Of a stretch of DNA of 64,000 nt, positions 52,561-58,714 are shown in pieces (within the stretch, counting starts at the first letter, position 1; each line of letters opens with the position of its first letter). A program made the position numbers and the translations under genes. The DNA is taken from positions 124,001 to 188,000 of the forward strand of contig CANJLD010000001.1 in NCBI GenBank assembly GCA_947475165.1. The letters are read 5' to 3'. Origin of the DNA: Bacteroidota bacterium (GTDB lineage Bacteria; Bacteroidota; Bacteroidia; Chitinophagales; LD1). The notes under the pieces were generated by a model. The model did no database searches. It saw nothing but the letters and a program-made list of their open reading frames with translations, and was not told where the DNA came from.

Positions 52561-53178
52561 ATGACTCCATCAGTTTCCATTTCTTCTTACGTTATTCTTC
52601 GCAATAGCCAAATTATATTAAATGGGGAAGTGATTTTTGAAAATAAGGAAGCTACTACTCTTAATTTCCTTCAAACTGCTTACGACCACTTTCAAATCAA
52701 CTATCCAAAATTTTTCAAAATGGATAACCTGTGTAAAACAGGTTTCCTTGCAGCAGAGCTTTTGTTGAGAGATAAAAAACTGAACGAAAAATTTCCATCT
52801 GAAGAAATCGGAATCATTTTCTCTAATGCCAATTCGAGTTTAGATACCGACATAAAATACGAATCAAGTATTTCAACGGCACCAAGCCCATCACTTTTTG
52901 CCTATACGCTTCCCAATGTTCTCATTGGCGAAATCTGCATCCGTCACCGTATTAAGGGCGAGGCAGCATGTTTCGTTTTTGATATATTTGACGCAACGTT
53001 TCAAACAGATTATGTGAACACGCTTTTTGAAACGGGAAAAGTAAAAACGTGTATTTCGGGCTGGGCAGATTATTACAATAGCAAAGCAGAGACATTTTTT
53101 TATTTAGCAGAAACAGGGAAAGAAAATTTAGAAATACATAACTCTTCAAACGTCAATAAAATTTTTCAAGGACTATGA
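52561..53178 (+). CDS. Ketoacyl synthase-like protein (short, N-terminal-domain type)
   Basis: 205 residues. It resembles the beta-ketoacyl synthase N-terminal region (EEIGIIFSNANSSLDTD; SPSLFAYTLPNVLIGEICIRH), but the nucleophile cysteine position is not conserved and the C-terminal half of a synthase is missing. Such short synthase-like proteins occur at the head of flexirubin-type clusters in Bacteroidota. It probably acts as a partner of the active synthase encoded downstream. Its stop overlaps the ACP start by 4 nt (ATGA). Confidence 0.75.
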   Translation: MTPSVSISSYVILRNSQIILNGEVIFENKEATTLNFLQTAYDHFQINYPKFFKMDNLCKTGFLAAELLLRDKKLNEKFPSEEIGIIFSNANSSLDTDIKYESSISTAPSPSLFAYTLPNVLIGEICIRHRIKGEAACFVFDIFDATFQTDYVNTLFETGKVKTCISGWADYYNSKAETFFYLAETGKENLEIHNSSNVNKIFQGL

Positions 53179-53429
53179 GTGAACTCATCGCAATGCTTAA
53201 AGTGCAAATTATAGAGCAACTGAACTTACAACATCTAAAGCCCGAAGATATTGGCGATGACCAACCTTTGTTTGTAGAAGGGCTTGGGCTTGATTCGATT
53301 GATGCGCTGGAATTGATTGTGTTGTTACAACAGAAATACGGAATCAAACTCGCTAACCCGCAAGATGGTCCACTGGTTTTTAAAACCGTGCGTTCCATTG
53401 CCGATTACATTACCGAGCACAAAAAGTAA
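53175..53429 (+). CDS. Acyl carrier protein
   Basis: 84 residues. The phosphopantetheine site is S41 in GLGLDSIDALEL. It carries growing acyl chains as thioesters for the synthases and dehydratase in this operon. A dedicated ACP inside the cluster, rather than the housekeeping one, supports a specialised lipid or polyene pathway. Confidence 0.93.
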   Translation: MSELIAMLKVQIIEQLNLQHLKPEDIGDDQPLFVEGLGLDSIDALELIVLLQQKYGIKLANPQDGPLVFKTVRSIADYITEHKK

Positions 53430-53473
53430 TTCTCCAATTGCCTTTCATCTGTGTAATCATAACGTAGTTATCT

Positions 53474-54679
53474 GTGAAATTGAACGAAGTAATATTTATT
53501 GCAGGTAAAGGAGTTATTTCTGCTATCGGCAACAACGTAGCAGAAAATTTTGCATCGCTTGTAAATCTGCAAACAGGAGTTTCTAAGATTACTATTCTGC
53601 CTACCCGTTATGCAGAAACTCTTCCGGCTGCCGAAGTAAAACTGACGAATGAAGAACTGGCGCAACTTTATAATTTCAGCAGTAATGAGCCTCGCACAGC
53701 TTTGTTGAGTTTAATTGCTGCCAAAGAAGCAGTTGCCGATGCCAACATTCCTGATTTCAAAAAATGGAGAACCGGTTTTATTTCTGCCAACACCGTTGGT
53801 GCAATGGATAAAACCGAAACCATTTTTAAGTGTTATATTGAGGATAGTAATACTGATAAATTAGTTGAAGAAGATCCCTATGATGCTGGTTATATAACTG
53901 AGCTTGTCGCGAATCAACTCGGCATTAAAGACCACATCACCACTATCAGCACAGCTTGCTCTTCATCGGCAAATGCAATGGCTTATGGTGCGCGCTTGAT
54001 CAAATCTAACCAACTTGATATTGTAGTTGCCGGTGGTTGTGATGCTATGAGCCGATTCACCTTAAACGGATTTAACTCATTGATGATTCTCGACAATATG
54101 CCATGCACTCCTTATGACGAGAATAGAAAAGGGTTGAACTTAGGTGAAGGCGCAGGATATGTGGTGTTAGTTTCAGAAAGAGTTGCAGCAACATTGGTGA
54201 AAAAGCCGACAACTGTTTTAAGCGGTTACGCAAATGCGAACGATGCATTTCATCAAACAGCATCATCGCCCGAAGGCAAAGGAAATTTTATGGCCATGCA
54301 AAGCGCACTCGAAATGAGCGGACTTACTACAAAAGATATTGATTACATTAACCTGCACGGCACCGGGACACCAAATAATGATTTGTCGGAAGGCATTGCT
54401 GTGCAACGCATTTTTGGTGAAGTGCCAAAGGTAAGTTCAACTAAACCTTACACCGGTCATACTCTTGGTGCTTGCGCGGGAATTGAAGCAGTGTATTCCA
54501 TTCTTTCTATCGAAAACGGAATCATCTTTCCGAACCTTCGTTTCCAAACTAAAATGAAAGAGCTTGATTTTACTCCAGTGACAGAGTTGTTGGAAAACGT
54601 AGAAGTAAATCATGCAATGAGTAATTCGTTTGGTTTTGGTGGTAATTGTTCATCGGTAATTTTTTCAAAAGCAAACTGA
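53474..54679 (+). CDS. Beta-ketoacyl-ACP synthase, FabF-like, catalytically complete
   Basis: 401 residues from a GTG start. The Cys-His-His triad is present: C162 in STACSSSANAM, H295 in NLHGTGTPNND, and H329 in KPYTGHTLGA. It condenses malonyl-ACP with an acyl chain. It is the only synthase of the three in the operon with the full triad, so it is probably the elongating enzyme. The stop overlaps the start of the next synthase-like gene by one base. Confidence 0.93.
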   Translation: MKLNEVIFIAGKGVISAIGNNVAENFASLVNLQTGVSKITILPTRYAETLPAAEVKLTNEELAQLYNFSSNEPRTALLSLIAAKEAVADANIPDFKKWRTGFISANTVGAMDKTETIFKCYIEDSNTDKLVEEDPYDAGYITELVANQLGIKDHITTISTACSSSANAMAYGARLIKSNQLDIVVAGGCDAMSRFTLNGFNSLMILDNMPCTPYDENRKGLNLGEGAGYVVLVSERVAATLVKKPTTVLSGYANANDAFHQTASSPEGKGNFMAMQSALEMSGLTTKDIDYINLHGTGTPNNDLSEGIAVQRIFGEVPKVSSTKPYTGHTLGACAGIEAVYSILSIENGIIFPNLRFQTKMKELDFTPVTELLENVEVNHAMSNSFGFGGNCSSVIFSKAN

Positions 54680-55734
54680 TGGCACTTTATATAAATGGCA
54701 TTGGTTGTATTTCGCCTCAACATACTTTCGATAACTCGGTGTTTCTGCCGGAGGTTAAAGAATATACCACAAATCGCTTGGCTTGTGTAGATGCCGATTA
54801 TTCTAAGTTCTTCGATGCCGGTTCTTTGCGCAGAATGGGAAGGCTAATGAAATACGGAACTGCTGCGGGAATGATTGCCTTGCGTGATGCAGGAATTGAT
54901 GTTCCCGGTGCTATCTCTACCGGAACGGCTCTTGGCTTACCGGAAGTATCGCAGAAATTTTTGAGAAGTTTGATTGAAGTAGATGAAACGATAGTAAGTC
55001 CCACCACTTTTATTCAGTCAACACACAATACGGTCAGTTCGAATATTGCTTTGCTGTGTAAATGTTTTTCGCACAACAATACTTTTTCGCACAAAGGCTT
55101 TTCGTTTGAAAGTGCTTTGACCGATGCGCAACTATTGGCTCTTGAAAACACGGATAACATTCTTGTGGGTGCTTATGATGAGGTCAGTGATTACAAGTAT
55201 GCGGCAATGAAGAAGACCAATGAACTTCGCCACGAGCCTTGCAGCAACTTAGATATTTACGGGGCGCAGAACCATGGCATTATAGCAGGAGAAGGGGCAG
55301 CGTTTTTTGTTTTATCTAAGCAGAAGAACGAAAATACTTATGGAAGTTTTATCGGCAATAAAGCTTTCTACAAACCGGAGAATAAAGAAGAAATTAGAAA
55401 TCACATTCTCTCCTTTCTAAAGGAGAATAATTCATCTCTTGAAGAAATTGATGTAGTACCAGCCGGCATTAGCGGAGCTAAAGAAGTTGATGAAATGAGA
55501 ATTGAATTAAATAAAAACCTCTTCTCGGCTCAAACCATTCTTGCCTACAAGCATCTTTGTGGTGAGTATATGACTTCCTCTGCTTTTGCGTTTTGGTTAG
55601 CTAGTAAAATCCTGAAGAGCCAACAAATACCGGATGCAGTTATTCTAGAAAACCGAAACCGCTTACCCAAAAATATTTTACTTTACAACTCGCATAAGCA
55701 CAACCATTCGCTAATGCTTTTTAAAGCATGTTAA
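54679..55734 (+). CDS. Ketoacyl synthase-like protein lacking the active-site cysteine
   Basis: 351 residues from the ATG at 54679; an upstream ATG at 54646 overlaps the preceding gene by 33 nt and is not used. It is of the Ketoacyl-synt_2 type: VSPTTFIQSTHNTVSSNIAL at about 107-125 takes the place of the ACSSG nucleophile motif, so there is no Cys. A chain-length-factor-like role beside the FabF-type enzyme is likely, by analogy with type II systems. It overlaps the deacetylase gene by 7 nt. Confidence 0.85.
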   Translation: MALYINGIGCISPQHTFDNSVFLPEVKEYTTNRLACVDADYSKFFDAGSLRRMGRLMKYGTAAGMIALRDAGIDVPGAISTGTALGLPEVSQKFLRSLIEVDETIVSPTTFIQSTHNTVSSNIALLCKCFSHNNTFSHKGFSFESALTDAQLLALENTDNILVGAYDEVSDYKYAAMKKTNELRHEPCSNLDIYGAQNHGIIAGEGAAFFVLSKQKNENTYGSFIGNKAFYKPENKEEIRNHILSFLKENNSSLEEIDVVPAGISGAKEVDEMRIELNKNLFSAQTILAYKHLCGEYMTSSAFAFWLASKILKSQQIPDAVILENRNRLPKNILLYNSHKHNHSLMLFKAC

Positions 55735-56501
55735 ACGCGCGCAATACAAGAATTGTCTTTTTAGTTCTCCTGCTTCTCACTCTGTTGCTTGATTGGAAAT
55801 ACGGAGTGCCGCTTTGTATTTACCTGCTACTGCTGCTTGGTTATTTACTGCTACTGTTCTACGGTTCCTATTTCATTCAATCCGATTTTTTTCTTCGTTC
55901 GCTTTGGAAAGGAAGTAAAAACCGCAAAGCCATCGCCATTACTTTTGATGACGGACCGGTGAAAGATTTTACACCCCGTTTACTTGATTTATTGAAGTGT
56001 GAAAATATTCCAGCCGCATTTTTTTTAATTGGAAAAAGCATTGAAGGAAACGAAGCATTGGTTAAGCGAATGGTGGATGAAGGGCACGTTATAGGCAACC
56101 ACAGTTATTCGCATACCTATTGGTTTTCATTGAACAAAAGCGAAACGATGTTTAGTGATATGAAGAAGTGTGATGATGAAATTTTCCGTGTAACCGGTAA
56201 GAGACCTAAGTTCTTTCGTCCGCCTTACGGAGTAATTAATCCAATGGTGAAGAATGCTATTGAAAAAGGAAGCTACGCCTGCATTGGCTGGAGCATACGC
56301 ACTTACGATACCAATGCGAAGAGTGCAGAACAACTTCTCCAAAAATCTCTTAAAAATTTAAGCAATGGCGATATAGTTTTGTTTCACGACTGGGGGCAAT
56401 TCACTATTGGCATCCTTTCTGCCTTTATTAAAGAAGCTCAAGCGCATGGATTTGAGATTATTAGAGTGGATGAGTTGTTGAATACTAAAGCCTATTACTG
56501 A
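55728..56501 (+). CDS. NodB-type polysaccharide deacetylase family protein, membrane anchored
   Basis: 257 residues. Two N-terminal membrane segments (about 8-50) precede a NodB domain with the catalytic TFDDGP (D74, D75), the metal histidines in NHSYSH (H125, H129), and RPPYG. These enzymes remove N-acetyl or other acyl groups. In flexirubin-type clusters a similar gene occurs in the same neighbourhood. The true substrate is unknown. Confidence 0.9.
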   Translation: MLNARNTRIVFLVLLLLTLLLDWKYGVPLCIYLLLLLGYLLLLFYGSYFIQSDFFLRSLWKGSKNRKAIAITFDDGPVKDFTPRLLDLLKCENIPAAFFLIGKSIEGNEALVKRMVDEGHVIGNHSYSHTYWFSLNKSETMFSDMKKCDDEIFRVTGKRPKFFRPPYGVINPMVKNAIEKGSYACIGWSIRTYDTNAKSAEQLLQKSLKNLSNGDIVLFHDWGQFTIGILSAFIKEAQAHGFEIIRVDELLNTKAYY

Positions 56502-56506
56502 TTGAA

Positions 56507-57142
56507 ATGAAAATATACAGACTACTGCTATTCTTAATTTCACTTTCTGCAATTCAAAGATTGGAGGCACAAACTTTTACTTATGTAAAGGATGCTGCTG
56601 CACTTCAAAAGAAAATTATTGAAGCGTCTAACAAGATTACGAGTATTCAATCCGATTTTACGCAAGAGAAGAAGATGAGTATGCTGACTGATAAAGCAAT
56701 TTCAAAAGGCAAATTTTATTTTAAGAAAGAGAGTAAAGTGCGTTTGGAATATTTGGTGCCGGTTAAAAATTTGATTGTAATGAACAGCGGAAAAATGCTG
56801 ATGAAAGATGATAAGAAGACTTCGCAAATGGACATGCACCGCAGCAAAGTATTCCAACAACTCAACAATATTATTGTCGGCTCTATCAACGGAAGTTTGT
56901 TTAACGGTAAAGATTTTTCGGTGAGTTTTTCTGAAAGCAATAATCAGGTGAGAGTAGAATTAAAGCCGCTTTCGAAAATGCTGAAGAACTTTTTAAGCAC
57001 AATAGTGCTAGTGTTGGATAAGAAAGATTTTACAGCAGTAAGAATTGAAATGAATGAAGCCTCGGGAGATAATACTATTCTCTCCTTTTCATCTAAACAA
57101 ATAAACGAAGCAGTAGATGATGCTTTGTTTGCCGTGAAATAG
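56507..57142 (+). CDS. LolA-like outer-membrane lipoprotein carrier protein
   Basis: 211 residues with a signal peptide cut near LEAQ. The LolA-like pattern is visible: TSIQSDFTQEKKMSML, then GKFYFKKESKVRLEY and the late ILSFSSKQINEAVDDALFAVK. It is a periplasmic carrier. Sitting inside a lipid or polyene operon, it is more likely to move the product (or a precursor) to the outer membrane than to serve general lipoproteins. The position mirrors LolA-like genes in aryl-polyene and flexirubin clusters. Confidence 0.85.
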   Translation: MKIYRLLLFLISLSAIQRLEAQTFTYVKDAAALQKKIIEASNKITSIQSDFTQEKKMSMLTDKAISKGKFYFKKESKVRLEYLVPVKNLIVMNSGKMLMKDDKKTSQMDMHRSKVFQQLNNIIVGSINGSLFNGKDFSVSFSESNNQVRVELKPLSKMLKNFLSTIVLVLDKKDFTAVRIEMNEASGDNTILSFSSKQINEAVDDALFAVK

Positions 57143-57171
57143 TTCCTTTATTTATCGCACAAATACTCTCA

Positions 57172-57540
57172 ATGCTTCTAGGAAGTTTCTACAACATTAT
57201 CGAATCAAGTAAAGAAGGGCAAACCTACCGTGCTAAGGTGAGTTTTAATGCCGCACACGAAATATTTAAAGGACACTTTCCTGATTTGCCAGTGGTGCCC
57301 GGTGTTTGTCAAACACAAATGTTGCAGGAAACACTTAATTATGTTACCGGTAAGAATTTCGAAATGAAACTGGCGCATCATATTAAGTTTCTTGCTTTGC
57401 TCAATCCCACCAATGTAAAGGAGTTGATGTGCGAGATTAAAATTGATAAAGAAGAGAGCGATAAACTTTTTGTAAGTGCCAGTTATTCTACACCAGAAGA
57501 AATGTTTTTCAGATTCAAAGGCGAGTTTGTAAATGGATAA
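57172..57540 (+). CDS. FabZ-like 3-hydroxyacyl-ACP dehydratase (hotdog)
   Basis: 122 residues. FabZ motif GHFPDLPVVPGV with catalytic H35, and the Glu at about 53 (MLQETL). Short form of the hotdog dehydratases. It would introduce the double bonds in a polyene or dehydrate an elongation intermediate bound to the operon's ACP. It overlaps the next gene by 8 nt. Confidence 0.88.
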   Translation: MLLGSFYNIIESSKEGQTYRAKVSFNAAHEIFKGHFPDLPVVPGVCQTQMLQETLNYVTGKNFEMKLAHHIKFLALLNPTNVKELMCEIKIDKEESDKLFVSASYSTPEEMFFRFKGEFVNG

Positions 57541-58714
57541 AGGAGCTTACAAACAAAAGTTTAAAGAACTTAGCTGTTGTGTTCTTATTCCAACCTATAA
57601 CAACAGCACTACTATTGAACAGGTAATTAAGGATGTGCTGGAATACAGCGATGATGTTTGCGTAGTCAATGATGGCTCTACTGATAACACACTTGCTCTT
57701 CTCTCTAAGTTTTCTCAAATAAAATTGCATTCGTATCAAAAGAATGTAGGTAAAGGCTGGGCGTTGCGCAAGGGGTTTGCCTTTGCGCGAAAACACAATT
57801 ACGATTATGCAATTACCCTTGATTCAGATGGACAACATTTTGCAGATGATTTGCCGACTATGCTGGATGCCTTAGAGAAAAATAAAAATGCTATTGTGAT
57901 TGGCTCGCGGAACATGAATCAAAGTTCAGTGCCGGGCAAAAGCAGTTTTGGCAACAAGTTTTCTACGTTTTGGTTTACGATGGAAACCGGTATCACTGTT
58001 CCTGATACACAATCAGGTTACCGCTTATATCCGGTTAAGGCATTGGAAGGTATCGGGTTTTTTACTTATAAATACGAATTTGAAATTGAAGTAATTGTTC
58101 GCGGCTCGTGGAGTGGTTTAGATGTAATTGCCGTGCCGGCTAAGGTTTACTATCCACCAGCGGAAGAGCGCATTTCGCACTTCCGTCCGTTTAAAGATTT
58201 TTCCCGAATAAGTGTATTGAATACCGTTTTAGTGTTCTGGACTTTTGCGTGGATAAAACCCCGCGATTTCTTTCGCCACATCTTTAAGAACGATTGGCGC
58301 GCTTTATTAGAAATGCACCTCATTCGTTCGCATGAAACACCGAGCGTAAAAGCATGGAGTATGGCAGTAGGTGTTTTCTTCGGCATTACTCCTTTCTGGG
58401 GTTTTCAAATTTGGTTTGTCATTTTTTTTGCGTGGTTGTTTAAACTCAACAAAGCACTTTCCATACTTGCTTCAAACATCAGTATTCCGCCTATGATTCC
58501 GCTTATTGTTTTTGCTAGTTATCAGGCTGGAAGAATATGGCTGGGCGGCAATGCCATGAGTTTAAGTTTCAGCGAGAACATGAAAGCAGAAATGATTGGC
58601 AAAAACTTTCTGCAATATGTAGTGGGTAGTTTTACGCTGGCAACTGTAGTTGCTTTTGCAGTTTGGGTGCTTACTTATTTGCTGGTGCTTGGCTACAAGA
58701 AATCGAAAGCATAG
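57533..58714 (+). CDS. Glycosyltransferase family 2 fused to a DUF2062 membrane domain
   Basis: 393 residues. GT-A domain (about 12-240) with CVLIPTYNNS, VVNDGSTDNT and the DxD-type LDSDGQH; then a DUF2062 domain (about 265-385) with FFGITPFWGFQIW and three membrane segments. This same fusion occurs in flexirubin clusters of Bacteroidota. It may glycosylate or anchor the lipid product at the membrane. It ends the operon started at 52561. Confidence 0.9.
   Translation: MDKGAYKQKFKELSCCVLIPTYNNSTTIEQVIKDVLEYSDDVCVVNDGSTDNTLALLSKFSQIKLHSYQKNVGKGWALRKGFAFARKHNYDYAITLDSDGQHFADDLPTMLDALEKNKNAIVIGSRNMNQSSVPGKSSFGNKFSTFWFTMETGITVPDTQSGYRLYPVKALEGIGFFTYKYEFEIEVIVRGSWSGLDVIAVPAKVYYPPAEERISHFRPFKDFSRISVLNTVLVFWTFAWIKPRDFFRHIFKNDWRALLEMHLIRSHETPSVKAWSMAVGVFFGITPFWGFQIWFVIFFAWLFKLNKALSILASNISIPPMIPLIVFASYQAGRIWLGGNAMSLSFSENMKAEMIGKNFLQYVVGSFTLATVVAFAVWVLTYLLVLGYKKSKA

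Follow-up and report, generated by a model that had tools for sequence, protein, structure and literature searches.

A LolA2-bearing ketosynthase operon of a Chitinophagales bacterium as the probable distal block of a flexirubin pathway scattered over at least six loci

The question raised by this locus is whether a compact operon of polyene-type genes in a Bacteroidota bacterium (order Chitinophagales) is a system of its own or a detached part of a known one. The operon occupies 52561-58714 on the + strand of the 64,000-nucleotide stretch analysed here (the window; C1:124001-188000), which belongs to a 3.88-Mb draft genome in 45 contigs. Flexirubin is the orange outer-membrane pigment of Bacteroidota, an aryl-polyene ester of a dialkylresorcinol (DAR). 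The preliminary description had weighed a flexirubin system with its other genes elsewhere against a stripped-down gene set for some other polyene or glycolipid. We conclude with high confidence that the operon forms the distal part of a flexirubin pathway broken into at least six loci, that is, a known system that is scattered and not a new one.

Domain scans with Pfam and NCBIfam agreed with the gene identities of the preliminary description for seven of the eight open reading frames (ORFs). Its account of eight tightly linked, overlapping genes also held; all lie on the + strand as one operon, in which overlaps and gaps are at most about 30 bp, the sole exception being a 44-bp gap between the second and third genes. 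The first gene (52561..53178) encodes S205, a 205-aa protein with the predicted fold of a half-size, Cys-less ketosynthase and an architecture like that of ApeC. It is followed by an acyl carrier protein (ACP) of the PRK09184 type (53175..53429; PF00550; NF006617 73.8 bits, cut-off 70), a FabF-like ketosynthase (KS) with a Cys-His-His triad (53474..54679; PF00109/PF02801; NF006618 E 2.4e-90, 303 bits and thus below the cut-off of 407) and a Cys-less, full-length KS-like or chain-length-factor-like (CLF) protein (54679..55734; PF13723), for which the ATG at 54679 is the better start. The remaining genes encode a polysaccharide deacetylase-like membrane protein (55728..56501; PF01522 E 7.2e-36), the periplasmic carrier LolA2 (56507..57142; PF03548; NF053544 LolA2_flexi 197.9 bits, cut-off 125), a FabA/FabZ-like hotdog dehydratase (57172..57540; PF07977 exactly at its cut-off of 23 bits) and a GT2 glycosyltransferase fused to DUF2062 (57533..58714; PF00535 and PF09835). 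That the LolA exceeds the cut-off of NF053544, a curated flexirubin model, ties the window block to the known pathway. No promoter was assigned from the 425 bp upstream of the operon.

The flexirubin partners missing from the operon were found elsewhere in the genome, as the preliminary description had allowed. Loci were located by KS, aromatic-lyase, MMPL and AMP-binding searches and by inspection of the extracted stretches, and the parts are spread over at least six of them: the window block, block a on the same contig, C20, C25 (two) and C29. Block a (C1:80.3-86.0k), with KS1, an ACP, an LpxL-like acyltransferase, a dehydratase, a thioesterase, KS2 and a halogenase-like flavin adenine dinucleotide (FAD) enzyme, lies 91 kb upstream of the window block on the same 317-kb contig and the same strand. 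Block b (C25:10.3-13.3k) holds an ACP, a KS, a CLF-like protein and a dehydratase, and block c (C25:34.3-42.6k) an ATP-binding cassette pair, DarH, DarG, DarB, DarA, a FAD enzyme and DUF1702. DarB, DarG and DarH of C25 scored 607, 193 and 451 bits (cut-offs 550, 170 and 300). Block d (C20:13.2-24.3k) comprises an MMPL fusion, a FAD enzyme, an AAT-like protein, AcpS, a 4-coumarate-ligase (4CL)-like protein and a G217 homologue, and block e (C29:11.3-13.6k) a lyase and a ketoreductase.

As a yardstick we used G101, a genome of the same order in which the flexirubin parts form one 40-kb stretch. Homologues of 27 of the 30 G101 cluster proteins were detected by tblastn in 15 stretches of the present genome, the window included, and the G101 order FADpd-C45-AcpS-4CL is retained on C20. 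Identity to the G101 counterparts was 59% for DarA (with DarB at C25:37.8-40.0k), 57% for both the tyrosine-ammonia-lyase (TAL)-like gene at C29:11.3k and the 4CL-like gene at C20:22.3k, which were assigned by homology, 44% for the MMPL-acyltransferase-methyltransferase fusion (C20:13.2-16.9k) compared with the exporter, and 54.6% for the window GT2-DUF2062 protein compared with the MMPL-adjacent glycosyltransferase. A type II elongation set is present, comprising KS1, KS2, the window KS and the C25 KS, three ACPs, the C29 ketoreductase and dehydratases. The parts that identify a flexirubin pathway, namely DarA/DarB, TAL and 4CL homologues, the elongation set and LolA2 with the MMPL exporter, are all encoded, without the physical linkage of a flexirubin cluster. 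The refuting condition named in the preliminary description included finding the remaining genes together at a single linked locus; in the genome they are dispersed instead. A GH28/pectinase-like ORF (L028:17040-18683) is inserted between the MMPL and FAD genes of block d; this label, like those of the AAT-like ORF and the gliding-type domain described below, was given by eye.

The relatives show how the blocks belong together. In the congeners G097 and G115, block a continues directly into the window block, the boundary lying between its FAD gene and S205. In another congener (L108; CAIYOV010000244.1) the two blocks are 2.9 kb apart with a single 918-aa ORF between them, and in G109, G137 and G064 the block-a FAD gene and the window block are on different contigs. 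Across the genus the window block has at least five upstream neighbourhoods, always with S205 as its first gene: the genes upstream of S205 make up five different sets (L109; L107; G121 with G109; G064; the present genome), and matches were found only between G121 and G109. A FastTree tree of five concatenated proteins placed L108 among the split genomes (one node with support 0.479) and the split G064 as sister to the joined G097 (support 0.999). The latter placement makes more than one break likely, as opposed to a single ancient split, and the FAD|S205 boundary has thus probably been broken more than once. The 918-aa ORF (L108:4642-7398) is adhesin-like with a gliding-motility-type C-terminal domain, and sits exactly at the FAD|S205 site where the other congeners are broken.

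S205 recurs across flexirubin clusters of Bacteroidota. An alignment scan gave at least 587 confirmed loci, and the best 80 were used for neighbourhood counts. Five loci (L109, L113, L124, L126 and L130) were set aside for short contigs; in 70 of the other 75, KS2 lay no more than 4 kb upstream of S205. The exceptions were L107, L108, L111, L138 and L185; the last may reflect a coordinate effect, since its printed order has KS2 beside S205, and was kept as an exception. KS and CLF followed S205 in every one of the 64 named loci that extend at least 7 kb downstream, and loci of that extent also contained a dehydratase (55), a LolA (47) or a glycosyltransferase (26). This recurrence of gene order is far above chance. 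TAL, 4CL, DarA, DarB or DarH occurred within flanks of at most 10 kb in 55 of the 80 loci. Seven loci, mainly of Mucilaginibacter (L144, L146, L154, L158, L166, L181 and L185), have a compact 4CL-TAL-KR-DH-KS2-S205-KS-CLF-DH cluster (KR, ketoreductase; DH, dehydratase) facing the dar genes, with deacetylase and LolA undetected in the flanks.

LolA2 and DarB also occur together. Among 149 genomes of the order, LolA2 (at least 122 bits) was found in 26, DarB (at least 518 bits) in 27 and both in 22, so that DarB is present in 22 of 26 genomes with LolA2 versus 5 of 123 others. These thresholds were picked after viewing the score gap; with the curated cut-offs, LolA2 is found in 25 genomes, DarB in 23 and both in 18. 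As the genomes are mutually related, the Fisher p for the co-occurrence is no true probability. In G141, which has DarB but no LolA2, the end of a contig probably accounts for the missing gene: the contig of L109 (CANJVG010000179.1) ends inside the deacetylase gene, and its S205 starts at the same base as that of G141:C179, coordinates from which we infer that the two are one contig.

Several observations weigh against the flexirubin reading. No X164 homologue was found by tblastn in the 15 stretches to which that search was limited. MT356, the ring methyltransferase candidate, had no match there, and its best whole-genome match was weak and generic (E 2e-5). The lipoprotein-like Q215 matched neither the 15 stretches nor the whole genome, the latter searched without a positive control. 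A FAD-oxidase homologue at C1:93.75-95.45k (L031:1751-3467; 56-60% identity) is spread across two reading frames, the break lying near C1:94.1k, which is either a real pseudogene or a draft error. DarB is lacking in two well completed genomes with LolA2, G115 and G094; a strict requirement of the polyene block for the resorcinol half therefore does not hold. Finally, the genome is a draft. The DUF1571 protein encoded directly upstream of KS1 (L010:7399-8268) was rejected as a substitute for Q215; it is present in 18/18 genomes of the genus and is therefore a core gene outside the pathway, and four of its carriers (G027, G103, G127 and G132) lacked LolA2 and gave no close match for the FAD gene of block a.

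The dispersal, the missing MT356 and Q215 and the broken FAD oxidase could together mean that the pathway is decaying and yields no pigment. We consider this unlikely, as the remaining listed pathway ORFs are intact, full-length frames and in G121 and G109 the eight proteins of the window block are all conserved, with identities of 75-94%. Were MT356 truly absent, the aryl ring would be expected to be unmethylated.

Less probable still is a free-standing pathway in which the window block makes a different polyene or glycolipid independently of the other flexirubin genes. Its distance from block a, its own ACP, KS, CLF, dehydratase, glycosyltransferase and LolA, and the occurrence in G115 and G094 of a LolA2-bearing polyene module in the absence of DarB would fit such a pathway; the clusters of these two genomes possibly make aryl polyenes without the resorcinol half. 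However, the starter, ketoreductase and exporter genes are not in the window block but in the other blocks, and G097 and G115 have block a and the window genes joined in a single cluster. Moreover, S205 is single-copy in 11/11 genomes tested and LolA2 has one match in the present genome, so that the other blocks have no further complete flexirubin set to belong to. The stripped set of the preliminary description thus gives way before a LolA that is the flexirubin equivalog, the distal position of the block in the contiguous clusters of relatives and the co-occurrence of LolA2 with DarB, and its suggestion of a new lipid system gained no support. As a separate observation, the DarB matches in the genomes that carry these flexirubin-type clusters, G094 (100% complete; L081) and G115 (99%; L078), were weak and of the ketoacyl synthase III type (best E 7e-4 and 7e-9). 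An artefact of metagenome assembly or binning, for which the 45 contigs might speak, is equally improbable, since block a and the window block share a single contig, every other block is flanked on both sides by other genes within its contig, and in other genomes (G109, G137 and G064) the block-a FAD gene and the window block are likewise apart.

S205 had no match in the Pfam or NCBIfam scans, and its sequence link to the synthases is weak: the best PDB profile match had E=0.018, 9 of 10 matches being KS or CLF chains, and the profile-profile probabilities against CLF and KS were 5% and 1.9%. The preliminary description had called it short and synthase-like, and the predicted structure backs this. 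The AlphaFold 2 model, from an alignment of 17 homologues, had a pLDDT of 88.6 and a pTM of 0.86. Its leading Foldseek matches were KS and CLF chains with TM-scores of about 0.5-0.6, the best being 6kxd_B of the ishigamide KS/CLF (E 9e-8); the half-size ApeC chains 6qsp_B and 7f28_C matched with E 4.6e-6 and 6.8e-6. With VIA-align, 196 residues, nearly the whole model, were superposed on one KS chain, FabF 1j3n_A (Z 15.0, root-mean-square deviation 4.1). ApeC is described as half-size, with one thiolase domain and the second almost lost (PMC8358021), and the near-full-length fit of S205 to a single KS chain agrees with that architecture. S205 likewise has one thiolase domain, falls within about 200-240 aa and lacks the catalytic Cys, whose position is non-Cys in 17/17 sequences. 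ApeC homology and the Arg-Arg ACP site are not recognisable: ApeC chains were absent from the profile matches at E<=10, and the alignment of 17 sequences has no conserved Arg-Arg pair. The model supports S205 being half a ketosynthase, with an architecture like that of the aryl-polyene chain-length factor ApeC. Going by letter order only, it may be FlxL, which is listed as a putative KS (PMC3992019).

The triad C162/H295/H329 is kept in 16/16 aligned KSs, while the catalytic Cys position is Gly, Ala or Asn in 18/18 CLF-like proteins. The CLF alignment profile matched 9s5h_C (E 1.7e-15) and ApeC 6qsp_B (E 6.6e-7), and R51 R52 are invariant in the full-length CLF; judged by eye, they correspond to the Arg-Arg pair named for ACP contact in ApeC (PMC8358021). 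Because the CLF keeps this pair and matches ApeC by profile, the window KS:CLF is, by sequence, the likelier counterpart of ApeO:ApeC, and S205 would be an additional half-size partner. KS2 was considered as the partner of S205 and is not concluded to be so with certainty. Its place just ahead of S205 in 70 of the 75 loci and its best PDB match, ApeO (6qsp_A), favour it. Two findings speak for the window KS instead: its match to ApeO has the higher absolute score (165.5 vs 127.2 bits), and in broken clusters (the present genome, L107, G121, G109, G064 and L138) S205 remains beside the window KS and CLF. We tentatively propose that flexirubin synthases use two non-catalytic KS-fold partners together, a full-length CLF and the widespread half-size S205 of ApeC-like architecture and unrecognisable sequence, and that S205-ACP-KS-CLF-export is a portable block repeatedly detached at one boundary.

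Read from gene content, order conserved in relatives and the predicted fold of S205, the flexirubin route would begin with deamination of tyrosine by the C29 lyase and activation by the C20 ligase. The aryl starter would be lengthened on ACPs by KS1, KS2 and the window KS:CLF, aided by the ketoreductase of C29 and a number of dehydratases. S205, as a half-ketosynthase without catalytic activity of its own, would most likely shape a condensing complex in the way that ApeC does with ApeO. DarA/DarB of C25 would supply the resorcinol half and the C20 fusion would export the ester, while LolA2, the deacetylase-like protein and GT2-DUF2062 of the window may attach it to the envelope and pass it to the outer membrane.

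The same parts list is found in Chitinophaga pinensis (Cpin_1853-1877, Cpin_6850/6851) and in flx and dar of Flavobacterium johnsoniae: TAL, CoA ligase, several KSs, reductases, dehydratases, deacetylase, LolA, glycosyltransferase, exporter and darA/darB (PMC3992019). The present genome, likened to C. pinensis DSM 2588 by this list, differs in that homologues of the G101 proteins MT356 and Q215 were not found. Aryl-polyene clusters of E. coli, Xenorhabdus and Acinetobacter (ApeO-ApeC, ApeR; PMC8253772, PMC8358021) likewise have a KS with a CLF partner and LolA-like and RND-family export proteins, and their half-size, single-thiolase-domain ApeC resembles the S205 fold, although a sequence match was undetectable by profile search. 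Flexirubin adds the DAR half, and its clusters hold an extra KS:full-length-CLF pair. Arcuflavin of Azoarcus sp. BH72 (PMC3949708) is also a polyene-DAR ester with genes in physically unlinked clusters, but from another phylum and with a hydroxybenzoate instead of a coumarate starter. Linkage is thus usual for flexirubin genes and not chemically defining, dar being unlinked from flx already in C. pinensis (PMC3992019). Flexirubin-type genes at several places are known from these two cases, and the present genome extends this to at least six loci, against one or two in C. pinensis and F. johnsoniae; among titles and abstract openings, no literature on dispersed flexirubin clusters was found.

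Flexirubin capacity can therefore not be judged from a single locus, and cluster-based genome mining would probably call this genome partial despite its nearly whole gene set. The main interest lies in the repeated detachment of the window block and in S205, a widespread half-ketosynthase of flexirubin clusters without a Pfam family.

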